From Congregibacter litoralis KT71 (lineage in GTDB: Bacteria > Pseudomonadota > Gammaproteobacteria > Pseudomonadales > Halieaceae): 64,000 nucleotides of DNA. The stretch spans positions 2,293,075 through 2,357,074 of the forward strand of contig NZ_CM002299.1 in the NCBI RefSeq assembly GCF_000153125.2. The letters are read 5' to 3'. A model generated the notes under the pieces. The model worked only from the letters and a program-made list of their open reading frames with translations, was not told where the DNA came from and ran no database searches. Both the position numbers and the translations under genes were made by a program. Positions 3,188-39,832 of the stretch are shown piece by piece (position 1 is the stretch's first letter; every line of letters starts with the position of its first letter).

Positions 3188-3910
3188 ATGTTGCTACGAC
3201 GCGTTACAGAGCATGTGCGCAATCAAAACTGGTTTGCCGTCGGTATCGACTTCTGTATTGTCGTGATCGGCGTTTACATCGGTATTCAGGTCGCAAATTG
3301 GAATTCTTCAAGGCTCACGCAGCAAGAGGAGAGCGTTCTCGTTTCAAGGCTGTTGGCCGAATTCAAGGAGCTTGAAGGAAAGCTAAACCAGAACTTGCTG
3401 ACCTACAAGAAAGACAAGGAGATTCTCCAGGAACTTATCAACGAAGTAAGCGGCGGTGTTAGTGAACAGGAGGCTCTAACTGTCGCGGAGCGCTCCTTGG
3501 GGATAAGCCTGTTGTCGCCCGCCATAAGCACTCCTGCTTACAGAGAACTACTGAGCACGGGCAAGATAAACATCATCCAGTCTCAGGCACTGAAACGCGC
3601 GTTGCGCGATTGGGGGATTCAAGCGGACAGGCTGGATATAGCGACGCCGGTAATTCTGGACTATTTGTTTTTACATGGCGCACCCCTCCACGATGTAACT
3701 AACGCTGCAAGAAACGGCGGATTCGCCGAGGGCTCGCTGTTTAAGTCGCAGCTATCTAGTCAAGTTGAATCATTGGAGTTGTATCTTGGGGCGTTGAATT
3801 GTCTACGCGGCGTCGAACTGCTTCTAGATTGGCAGACAGTCACGTTAGAGCGCGCAGCGGAAGTCATCATGGCTGCGGAGCAATACTCGCGCTCAATAGA
3901 ACCTGAGTGA
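3188..3910 (+). CDS. DUF6090-like membrane-anchored protein of unknown function
   Basis: 240 residues from the ATG at 3188, chosen because GGAG sits 8 bases upstream (3176-3179). The N-terminus has a short basic stretch (MLLRRVTEHVRNQNWFA) followed by one transmembrane helix (VGIDFCIVVIGVYIGIQV) and an NWN motif. This layout matches proteins annotated DUF6090, whose function is unknown. The rest is predicted to be helical, with charged segments rich in Glu, Lys and Leu at about residues 40-90, probably exposed on one side of the membrane. Codon and base composition look less GC-rich than neighbouring core genes (AT-rich codons such as aag, ata, aac), suggesting acquisition. No operon partner. 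The function remains open. Confidence 0.75.
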   Translation: MLLRRVTEHVRNQNWFAVGIDFCIVVIGVYIGIQVANWNSSRLTQQEESVLVSRLLAEFKELEGKLNQNLLTYKKDKEILQELINEVSGGVSEQEALTVAERSLGISLLSPAISTPAYRELLSTGKINIIQSQALKRALRDWGIQADRLDIATPVILDYLFLHGAPLHDVTNAARNGGFAEGSLFKSQLSSQVESLELYLGALNCLRGVELLLDWQTVTLERAAEVIMAAEQYSRSIEPE

Positions 3911-36886: not shown

Positions 36887-36925
36887 TACTTCACAATCCT
36901 TTTGAATAAAAAAATCTGCCGGACA

Positions 36926-37369
36926 TCAGAAGATGCCCATCTCCAGCCCCGCCGCAAAGCCTGCGCCGTATTCCCGGGCGTTCTGCAGGGCCTCCTCATC
37001 CGGCACTCCGCGAATGATCAGGGGTTCCAGGGCTTCCGTAAAAGGGATGCCTTTGAGAATGCGCTGTGCCTCGGCCACGGCACCACGCCCGTCATTGCCC
37101 GCGGACACCAGAAGCGCGTAGGGCAAAGTGGACTGGTGATCAATGAGTGGATAAAAGGTCCTATCGAGGAAGTCTTTCATAGCACCGGCCAGGCGCCCGG
37201 AGTTTTCGGCGCACACCAGAAGCAGTCCCGTGCTCGCCAACACCTCGGGCGTACCGGTATCCACCGCACGGCAAAAGCGTACCTTCGGGTCGTGTTCGAG
37301 GGCCCCTTCAAGGCTCGCTGCGGCGAGCCTCGCGGCACTGCCGCTTTGACTGTGATAAACGACTAGCAT
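36926..37369 (-). CDS. Flavodoxin-like / FMN-dependent reductase family protein
   Basis: 147 residues. The N-terminal strand and phosphate loop MLVVYHSQSGSAARLAAA match the FMN-binding P-loop of flavodoxin-like proteins. LLLVCAENSGRLAGAMKDFL and the LLVSAGNDGRGAVAEAQRI segment fit the second and third FMN loops. It may be a small electron carrier or NAD(P)H-quinone reductase-like protein; too diverged to name. It is the same length as E. coli MioC (147), another flavodoxin beside DnaA boxes, but sequence similarity to MioC is not evident. The gene reads out of the AT-rich, DnaA-box-containing region immediately upstream. Confidence 0.85.
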   Translation of the reverse strand: MLVVYHSQSGSAARLAAASLEGALEHDPKVRFCRAVDTGTPEVLASTGLLLVCAENSGRLAGAMKDFLDRTFYPLIDHQSTLPYALLVSAGNDGRGAVAEAQRILKGIPFTEALEPLIIRGVPDEEALQNAREYGAGFAAGLEMGIF

Positions 37370-37405
37370 GTCAACCGCTTGAAACTCCTCCCAGCTAGCT
37401 CAAGA

Positions 37406-37414
37406 TGTGGATAA
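37406..37414 (-). promoter_or_regulatory. DnaA box (TTATCCACA)
   Basis: Exact consensus 9-mer on the minus strand (TGTGGATAA on plus), 37 bases upstream of the flavodoxin-like gene start. Confidence 0.7.
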
Positions 37415-37448
37415 AGCAGTGTGCAAAAAAAATGCAAGGCCTTCATAG

Positions 37449-37457
37449 TTATTCACA
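37449..37457 (+). promoter_or_regulatory. DnaA box (TTATTCACA)
   Basis: Exact match to TTATNCACA, at the left edge of the AT-rich stretch. Confidence 0.65.
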
Positions 37458-37592
37458 GCCGAAATTACGGGATAGCAGCCTAAAACTTAAAATTATAAAA
37501 TAGTAATTAAAATCAATAAATTAAATACATAAATTAAAGCCACTTATCCGGTTATTTTCTGCTAGCACATTGTCAGATTTTTTTGCAAGCGC

Positions 37593-37601
37593 TGTGGATA
37601 A
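37593..37601 (-). promoter_or_regulatory. DnaA box (TTATCCACA)
   Basis: Exact consensus 9-mer on the minus strand, ending 2 bases from the rlmKL stop codon, at the right edge of the AT-rich stretch. Confidence 0.7.
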
Positions 37602-37603
37602 GT

Positions 37604-39832
37604 TTATTTTTTTGCGCTGTCTGCGACCCCCTGGAGCGTCTTGTGGCGCATTTCCCAGCACTGATGAGGCACGGGATTACGTTGAAAATCCGGGTCTAAA
37701 GTGGACCGGGTGATGTCTTTTACAGCGAAGCGCTCACTGACCTCGCCATCGAGACGAAACTTGCGGCGATTGTTGGAAAAATACAGTACGCCCTCGGGAG
37801 CCAGCCGCTGCATCGCGAGATTCAGTAAACCGCCGTGATCCCGCTGGACATCGAAGCTACCGGGCACTTTTCGGGAGTTAGAGAACGACGGCGGATCCAG
37901 GAGAATCAGATCGAATAGCTCGTCCCCCTCTCGCAGCCATTGCATAACATCCGCCCGCACCAGATGATGCCGCGTTTCCGCCAGGCCATTATGGGCCAGA
38001 TTTTGCCCAAGCCAGCGCAGATAACTGTTGGATAAATCCACGCTCACGGTCTCCCGGGCACCGGCAAGGGCCGCATGCACCGTGGCGGAGCCGGTGTAAC
38101 AGTAGAGATTCAGAAAACGCAGTCCCGTCGCCTCTGCCGCAATACGTAAACGCAGGGGCCGATGATCCAGAAACAGCCCCGTGTCGAGGTAATCGTGAAG
38201 ATTGACCAGGAGTCGTGCCTCGCCCTCGCGCACTGACAGCATCTCCCCTTCATCACCGCGGACCTCATACTGCGCCTTACCGCGTTGGCGTTCGCGCTGC
38301 TTGAACACAATCCTGTCAGCACTAACCCCCGTCGCCGCAGGGAGGCTTTGACGCACATCGTTCAAGCGCTGAGCAGCCGCTGCCTCGCTGACCTGCGCCG
38401 GCGCCTTGTACTCCGCCACGTGCAGATAATCGCCGTAGCGGTCCACGGCCACAGCATATTCGGGGATATCTGCGTCGTAGAGTCGATAACATTCGTTGCC
38501 GCTGCGCTTGAGCCAGGACGCAAGCTTGCGCTGATTTTTACGCAGGCGGTTGGCAAACATCTCCGCTCCGTCACTGAGCTCCGGTAATGCCTCCGCCTCG
38601 GGGATGTCGATCTCCAAGTCCTTCCTCGCGACCAGCGCGTCACCGTCGGCGAGGCGGTTCCCCTCAAGATCCAGGAGCAGCAGCGTGACGGGCAAACGGC
38701 CGTTGAACAGCTGGTACTGCTTATGGCTGCGCAGCCCCAGGGACCGACCATGCTCCCGGTCCCCGGCGAGGATAGCCGCCTGCCAACCGGCGAACTCCCG
38801 GTGAAGCAGTTCGCCAAGGTGACGATAGAGTTGCGGCAGGCTGTCTTTACGCCCGATGCGCTCACCGTAAGGGGGGTTGGTGATAAGCAGGCCTTTGGGC
38901 AGCGCCACGTGGGTCGGTTTGCGCACTTCGCCCAGGGCTTTGACGCTGACGCGCACCCACTTTGCGAGCCCTGCCGCAGCAATGTTTTCTTCCGCACGGC
39001 GAATAACTTTGGGATCGGCGTCATAGCCACGGATCTCCGGCAACCCTGCCGCGAGCCCCCGCTCTGCTCTGCCCCGGGCTTCACTGTGAACCGCCGACCA
39101 TTGCTCAGGGTCATGGCCTTGCCAGCCCATAAAATCAAAACGCGTCCGACCCAGGGCCGGCGCCTGATCCGCAGCTATCTGCGCCCCCTCCAATAACAGC
39201 GTTGCAGAACCGCACATGGGATCCACCAGGGCAGCACCCTCTCTCGCCAGCTGAGGCCAGTCCGCTCGCAACAGGAGCGCCGCGGCTAGGTTCTCCTTGA
39301 GGGGGGCATCTCCCGCGGCGCGGCGATAACCACGGCGATGGAGGCTCTCACCCACCATATCCAGGGCCACATCGATATGATCACGATGCAATCGCACAAC
39401 GATGTGGAGATCCGGTGCCTCGGGATTGACCCTTGGAGGCGCCCTGCCCGCTGCGCGATACTTATCCAGGATGGCATCCTTGCTGCGCTGGGCACCAAAG
39501 CGGGTGTTGCGAATCTCGCTGTTCGTGCCGTTAAAGTTCACCGCAATACTCGCGCCCTCGGCCAGGAGATCGGGCCAGGGTATCTCCAGGAGCGTTGCGT
39601 ACAGTGCATCCGCATCCCCGGCAGCCCCTTCGCCAACGGGTAACAGCACCCGGGTCGCAATACGCGACCAGAGACAGACCCGGTACATGACCGCACGGGT
39701 GCCCGTAAAACTCACTCCGGCCTGCTGCTCACGGATATCCGTGGCGCCCAGGGCCTCGAGCTCCGCGGCCAGAACCGGCGGTAGCGCCCGGGGGCAGGTC
39801 GCGAGCCATTGACGGGGCGTATCAGCGATCAC
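37604..39832 (-). CDS. rlmKL: Bifunctional 23S rRNA (guanine-N2/N7)-methyltransferase RlmKL
   Basis: 742 residues, close to the usual 700-730 of the fused enzyme. Methylates G2445 (RlmL half) and G2069 (RlmK half) of 23S rRNA. Order: THUMP domain (about 40-170, with RAAGRAPPRVNPEAPDLH), RlmL Rossmann domain with LVDPMCGSATLLLEGA and the catalytic NPPYGERIG, a linker (FANRLRKNQRKLASWLKRSG), then the RlmK domain with LNLYCYTGSATVHAALAGA and the catalytic LLDPPSFSNSRKV. The start overlaps the end of the XRE-like gene by 11 bases. The gene ends at the DnaA-box region. Confidence 0.97.
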   Translation of the reverse strand: MIADTPRQWLATCPRALPPVLAAELEALGATDIREQQAGVSFTGTRAVMYRVCLWSRIATRVLLPVGEGAAGDADALYATLLEIPWPDLLAEGASIAVNFNGTNSEIRNTRFGAQRSKDAILDKYRAAGRAPPRVNPEAPDLHIVVRLHRDHIDVALDMVGESLHRRGYRRAAGDAPLKENLAAALLLRADWPQLAREGAALVDPMCGSATLLLEGAQIAADQAPALGRTRFDFMGWQGHDPEQWSAVHSEARGRAERGLAAGLPEIRGYDADPKVIRRAEENIAAAGLAKWVRVSVKALGEVRKPTHVALPKGLLITNPPYGERIGRKDSLPQLYRHLGELLHREFAGWQAAILAGDREHGRSLGLRSHKQYQLFNGRLPVTLLLLDLEGNRLADGDALVARKDLEIDIPEAEALPELSDGAEMFANRLRKNQRKLASWLKRSGNECYRLYDADIPEYAVAVDRYGDYLHVAEYKAPAQVSEAAAAQRLNDVRQSLPAATGVSADRIVFKQRERQRGKAQYEVRGDEGEMLSVREGEARLLVNLHDYLDTGLFLDHRPLRLRIAAEATGLRFLNLYCYTGSATVHAALAGARETVSVDLSNSYLRWLGQNLAHNGLAETRHHLVRADVMQWLREGDELFDLILLDPPSFSNSRKVPGSFDVQRDHGGLLNLAMQRLAPEGVLYFSNNRRKFRLDGEVSERFAVKDITRSTLDPDFQRNPVPHQCWEMRHKTLQGVADSAKK

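Follow-up and report, generated by a model that had tools for sequence, protein, structure and literature searches.

A conserved non-coding element of DnaA boxes and an IHF-consensus site at the 3' end of rlmKL in Halieaceae

Our analysis revealed that the 234-bp intergenic region between rlmKL and a 147-aa flavodoxin-like gene of Congregibacter litoralis KT71 is, as judged by sequence comparison, a real, conserved and non-coding DnaA-box/IHF-consensus element of Halieaceae. Its boxes and its IHF-consensus site have a defined order, orientation and spacing, are conserved among relatives, and lie away from the origin marked by GC skew. As to its function, we tentatively favour a datA-like DnaA-IHF locus that would titrate or inactivate DnaA, a reading that we place slightly short of an even chance. 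Among the options of the original prediction, it is the titration or regulatory site that gained support and could be extended to the family level. In what follows the window means the whole stretch of 64,000 nucleotides analysed, of which position 1 is the first letter.

The intergenic region has a GC content of 35% in a window of 59%. Three perfect DnaA boxes had been predicted in it, and exact matches to TTATNCACA indeed stand at 37406-37414 (minus strand), 37449-37457 (plus) and 37593-37601 (minus). Read along the minus strand, the outer box TTATCCACA (37593-37601, exact) comes just 3' of the stop codon of rlmKL, a 23S rRNA methyltransferase gene (37604-39832, minus) recognised by the Pfam families RlmL_1st, THUMP, UPF0020 and Methyltrans_SAM and by synteny. 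Counted from start to start, an IHF-site candidate, TAATTTATTGATT (37511-37523, minus), is separated by 78 bp from the outer box that precedes it and by 109 bp from the inner box that follows; it matches exactly the consensus TAAnnnnTTGATW as given in an excerpt of PMC8682772. Around this candidate extends a stretch defined by composition, with no strand assigned, in which 54 of 60 bases are A or T (37481-37540). Then come the opposite-sense box TTATTCACA (37449-37457, plus, exact), a box of the wider consensus, TTTTGCACA (37420-37428, minus), in the same sense as the inner box and 14 bp upstream of it, and finally the inner box itself, again an exact TTATCCACA (37406-37414, minus). The flavodoxin-like gene beyond (36926-37369, minus) matches TIGR01753 at 25.2 bits, below the cut-off of 123, and a Pfam search of its 147-aa product gave no match. 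No Fis consensus was found in the element of the window genome. A known structured RNA at the site was rejected as well, as an Rfam search of 36900-38000 gave no family up to E = 1.

The clustering of the boxes is well beyond chance. The window holds four exact TTATNCACA sites compared with 0.82 +/- 0.89 in shuffles, and four or more occurred in 0 of 100 shuffles. The whole genome, one contig of 4,351,117 bp in which the window spans 2293075-2357074, contains 72 exact sites and 30 of the reversed pattern, and the triple in the window is the only one within 200 bp; when 72 sites are placed at random, any such triple arises in 5 of 20,000 trials. The AT-rich stretch in GC-rich surroundings is likewise borne out: the most AT-rich 60-mer of the window starts at 37481 with 90% A+T, and the next non-overlapping best reaches 73%. 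Elsewhere in the genome, four TTATACACA sites at 3379625-3382498 form two pairs of 576-base spacing that lie 2289 bases apart, which suggests a duplicated repeat.

It had been proposed that the region may be the main oriC, which is refuted by the position of the dnaA cluster, the flip of the skew and a dif-like site. The cluster occupies 203.8-217.4 kb of the chromosome, with rpmH, rnpA, yidC, mnmE and mnmG on one side and dnaN, recF and gyrB on the other (gene names were read from translations, rpmH by eye), and the one DnaA found in the genome is encoded at 211.0-212.6 kb. GC skew was sampled in twenty 20-kb stretches and the window. The samples running from 200 kb up to 2.04 Mb show positive values, and those from 2.27 up to 4.17 Mb, together with the one at 0-20 kb, show negative ones. 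The switch to positive falls within the dnaA sample, near 205 kb, and the switch to negative between 2.06 and 2.27 Mb. A skew minimum had been expected at 37.5 kb of the window if this were the origin, yet in the sampled stretches the change from negative to positive lies by dnaA, and within the window 31 of 32 bins of 2 kb are negative and the skew does not shift at the site. The dif-like site, with 2 mismatches, is found at 2,112,698, 218 kb from the element, which at 2.33 Mb has covered 97% of the distance from dnaA towards the point diametrically opposite (0.97 of the half-circle). A secondary or former origin, in which the DnaA boxes would act with an AT-rich unwinding element, draws on the adjoining 90% A+T stretch, and we found no supporting feature beyond boxes and AT content for the secondary or replicon-specific origin that had been suggested. 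We hold it to be very improbable in view of the unchanged skew, the ORF list for 33.0-42.5 kb of the window, in which we noticed no replication gene, the less extreme AT content in relatives (best 60-mers of 39-53 A/T in syntenic regions longer than 200 bp), and an oriC candidate in the rpmH-dnaA gap, where an IHF-consensus site and an AT-rich stretch lie at 210.37-210.57 kb. This likely oriC (210369-210572) has one exact TTATCCACA and one TTTTACACA, fewer exact boxes than the window site. The parallel once drawn with mioC of E. coli also fails: BLASTP to MioC gave a best E of 0.033 over 27 residues, which is no real similarity, and the arrangement is opposite, for oriC lies downstream of mioC in E. 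coli while the region here is upstream of the flavodoxin-like gene.

The comparison with related genomes, which had been recommended, showed the box/IHF-consensus element to be conserved at the 3' end of rlmKL across the family. The flavodoxin-like gene is present in 47 of the 58 genomes searched, the window genome included. Its upstream regions in syntenic relatives often hold TTATCCACA boxes and IHF-consensus sites (30 flavodoxin loci, of which 7 have no rlmKL in reach, and two, L034 and L046, are uninformative with intergenic lengths of 5 and 53). From these upstream regions we drew a pattern, TTGATT followed after 96-110 bases by TTATCCACA, which gave 49 matches in 45 of 140 family genomes and a single match when reversed. 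Thirty of the 49 loci were read: 20 lie at the 3' end of rlmKL, hereafter type A, 8 lie at queD with an esterase-like gene beyond, hereafter type B, and 2 elsewhere. The rlmKL flanks were then taken as such. From 123 rlmKL matches, four incomplete genes (G135, G133, G155 and G146) and one gene without flank (G072) were excluded, leaving 118 flanks, that of G112 being only 450 bases long. Outside the genera g13 and g24 there are 70 flanks from 25 genera, own genome included, and an exact same-sense TTATNCACA occurs in 66 of them, accompanied in 63 by a partner, either outer or head-to-head, that has the spacing expected; among 1400 Markov resamples an exact box arose in 2 and box plus partner in 0. 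The flanks of g13 and g24 have an exact box in 8 of 48 and box plus partner in 1 of 48, and the full form in none (0/44 and 0/4, respectively), so the site is dispensable. These two genera have mostly smaller genomes, and 7 of their loci that were read carry type B at queD.

In type A an outer box comes first, the IHF site lies about 80 bp on and the inner box about 110 bp beyond that, and in most cases a head-to-head box closes the series. Of the 66 flanks having the inner box, 41 show an outer box by the loose definition NNWTNCACA at a distance of 187-192 bp, and a head-to-head box follows the inner box in 50 of 70, with a gap of 8 in 45 and of 5 in the other five, which are the five genomes of genera g9 and g20. 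In the genus of the window genome, outer and inner box are 187 bp apart in all four genomes examined, none of which has the head-to-head box; the one at 37449 is private to the window genome, being absent from the three same-genus genomes examined, and TTTTGCACA at 37420 is present in G002 and not exact in G003 and G001. The IHF site keeps its position in the family alignments and is weaker (TTGAA or TTAAA) in the three other genomes of the genus. Of 51 type A elements with a head-to-head box, 49 have no Fis consensus in the 110 bp that precede the inner box. In some type A elements, such as L076 and L077, visual inspection of the alignment shows a T-run hairpin between outer box and IHF site; it could be the rlmKL terminator, and the window genome has no evident counterpart. 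When 84,980 species genomes were scanned for the form with gap 8 and a strict IHF site, 20 stretches were returned, 13 titled as Halieaceae or its genera and 7 as gammaproteobacterial assemblies, which assigns this form, head-to-head box included, to Halieaceae.

In 9 of the 13 loci checked (L056, L059-L061, L063-L065, L072 and L073) the inner box is followed after 17-36 bases by the end of a convergent reading frame, 341-460 codons long, and the element therefore lies between two 3' ends. A DnaA-regulated promoter, one of the options originally listed, is possible for the window genome, where the boxes stand 45-232 bp upstream of the flavodoxin-like start, but is disfavoured by the convergent stop codons that enclose the element in the nine relatives and by the lack of a sigma-70-like promoter in 37300-37700, a lack that says little since shuffles give only 0.8. 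More generally, DnaA and IHF could regulate the flavodoxin-like gene or block read-through from rlmKL, and box 2 of E. coli datA together with IHF is described in part of PMC10950094 as limiting read-through. Such transcription control nevertheless seems improbable to us, as the element is enclosed by convergent genes in most loci checked, the flavodoxin gene is 0.5-1.3 kb from the element in several relatives and no terminator-like site was found in 37300-37700 either, where few of either kind are expected by chance.

Type B deserves attention on its own account. The window genome carries such a DARS2-like element at 2483296-2483510 beside queD, composed of an outer box, an IHF-like site, an AT-rich palindrome, and tandem and head-to-head boxes. 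Among 105 genomes with queD, 30 queD loci were read and 29 have at least two of the three features scored; the IHF site is a strict TTGAT in 4 of 30 and TTGT in most. In the order as a whole, a strict pattern of the type B kind is found in 75 of 390 genomes (type A loci included) and the reversed pattern in 2. The 29 order-wide loci that were read (L085-L113) comprise 5 of type A and 24 type B-like (L085-L104 and L110-L113), the latter with a head-to-head gap of 5 in 24 of 24; 8 of these adjoin queD, and the other 16 adjoin none of the genes tested. The Fis consensus is exact in 7 of 29 Halieaceae type B copies and is not found in that of the window genome. A palindrome such as GGTTAAAAAATAACC occurs at most 60 bp after the type B IHF site (L086, L092, L098 and others), and in 13 of the 24 order-wide loci it fits the Fis consensus GnnYAnnnnnTRnnC; a Fis site in type B is to be taken as a lead only. 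Type B is possibly the more general discovery of the two.

The relation between the two types speaks for the chief rival, namely a DARS-like site whose boxes and IHF would make DnaA release ADP and thereby restore ATP-DnaA ahead of initiation, type A then being a second, Fis-independent relative of type B. In both types the inner box has, on its upstream side, the outer box at 187-192 bp and the IHF-like site at about 109-111 bp. An HMM built from 63 type A elements matches type B of the window genome over its length at E 3.6e-7; the same HMM gives the window's own element, a member of the training set, only E 0.0049, which marks this element as a divergent member of type A. The two types therefore probably share an origin, and the match favours common descent with a DARS-like site against the datA-like reading. 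Type B differs from type A in two traits of the DARS core, the gap of 5 and a tandem box upstream. The gap of 5 in g9 and g20 points the same way, as does a match to a loose IHF consensus, WATCARNNNNTTR, in E. coli DARS2 (3571-3583 of locus L053), at a distance of 109 bp from its strong box; the stricter consensus with one mismatch misses the site. Nevertheless the opposed box is missing in the window genome, the gap is 8 and not 5 in most flanks that have a head-to-head box, and the Fis consensus is almost always absent, for which reasons we consider a DARS-like role unlikely, if well worth keeping in sight.

The datA-like reading, in turn, is supported by the exact boxes and their clustering beyond chance, by the box and partner seen in nearly all flanks and in no Markov resample, by an order and orientation as in E. 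coli datA, and by the absence of a Fis consensus from the own element as well as from nearly all those of relatives. The partner proteins are also encoded: besides DnaA, the genome has one Fis homologue (49% identity) and four genes of the HU/IHF family, counted at the level of the family and not as IHF subunits. On the other side, the reading is weakened by a spacing unlike that of datA and the lack of a significant HMM match to it, by the gap of 5 in five relatives, by the poorer working of datA near the E. coli terminus, by the missing full form in g13 and g24, and by the degraded IHF site in the rest of the genus. If the reading holds, IHF would bind the candidate site between two same-sense high-affinity DnaA boxes and fold the DNA, and the fold would bring DnaA on the outer box to DnaA on the inner box. 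This contact might be assisted by TTTTGCACA in the window genome and by the head-to-head box in many relatives, and the resulting DnaA oligomer would hold DnaA and probably promote hydrolysis of its ATP, leaving DnaA less active. The binding of DnaA and IHF, the looping and the direction of the effect are here what we infer from the arrangement of sites.

The position on the chromosome brings in two further readings. In the four genomes with measurable contigs the element is terminus-proximal, at 0.97 (own), 0.95 (G035, from a rounded genome length and only one exact box), 0.85 (G036) and 0.84 (G070, on the largest of 4 contigs) of the half-circle. DnaA and IHF might then serve chromosome organisation or another terminus-linked role unrelated to the DnaA pool, which we think has a slim chance only, as the position may simply reflect the conserved rlmKL synteny, and dif was the sole type of terminus site searched. 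Somewhat less doubtful, and still quite unlikely, is a terminus-proximal DnaA-IHF switch of Halieaceae distinct from datA and DARS: its late duplication would change the pool of active DnaA at the end of the round and so couple completion to the next licensing in cells without SeqA. A search of the genome did not find SeqA, with a control match obtained in E. coli.

Non-coding sites that set the state of DnaA have been worked out mainly in E. coli. An element fixed by synteny in a mostly marine family of Gammaproteobacteria, together with a DARS2-like partner found order-wide, would show such control to be more widespread and varied, and the place near the terminus raises the question whether position, and not only sequence, sets the role. 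Types A and B are concrete sites for functional study. In the open-licence literature of PMC we recognised no description of such a site in Halieaceae, or of DARS or datA in Pseudomonas, where the query 'datA' also matches 'data'.

For the comparison with known systems, datA, DARS1 and DARS2 were located in MG1655 by gene neighbourhoods that we take to be theirs, and the identities of the boxes follow from our reading of order and orientation. As read, datA consists of TTATCCACA (plus), the IHF site TAACCTATTGATA (plus), TTATTCACA (plus) and TCATCCACA (minus), the same order and orientation as the outer box, IHF site, inner box and head-to-head box of type A. Both are non-coding, and in both datA and the window element two same-direction boxes of apparently high-affinity type flank one IHF-consensus site; an opposed box by the inner box is shared with many relatives and not with the own genus. 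They differ in spacing (65 + 97 bp in datA, 78 + 109 bp in the window element), in neighbourhood (tRNA-Gly/queG, rlmKL) and in position, datA being origin-proximal and the window element terminus-proximal. The type A HMM gave the datA locus E 0.76 and 3, no significant homology beyond the boxes, and over datA, DARS1 and DARS2 its E values range from 0.083 to 7.9, no better than the 0.063 that it gives to an unrelated stretch of the window; direct homology by profile was therefore set aside. In the part of PMC5742627 that deals with datA, its essential boxes have a common direction and box 4 acts as a stimulator only, which the own genus fits in lacking the opposed box, and the boxes kept within this genus share one direction too. 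We compared TTTTGCACA at 37420, of the same sense as the main boxes, with the low-affinity essential box 7 of datA, an equivalence that sequence does not establish.

As for DARS, excerpts of PMC5742627 and PMC8682772 describe a core in which box I is opposed to boxes II and III with the same spacing at both known sites. The gaps that we read in MG1655 are 5 and 3. The head-to-head gap of 5 contrasts with the 8 that prevails in type A, and beside the inner box of the window genome the opposed box is absent. DARS2 resembles the window element in being intergenic and in having DnaA boxes of which the strong one is roughly 110 bp away from an IHF-like site, and differs in its neighbours, its position and its need of a Fis site for activity, the Fis consensus being found in only 2 of 51 type A relatives. 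The spacing of DARS2 is reported in PMC5742627 to be conserved in E. coli-proximal beta- and gammaproteobacteria. Moreover, datA and DARS2 work less well in E. coli when moved near the terminus, as stated in a section of PMC5010248, so that the terminus position of our element is either a point against simple equivalence or a sign of different use. The same source reports that chromosomal DnaA-box clusters of B. subtilis titrate DnaA. These clusters and the window element are alike in lying away from oriC, whereas the IHF-consensus site, the fixed spacing and the place near the terminus belong to the window element.
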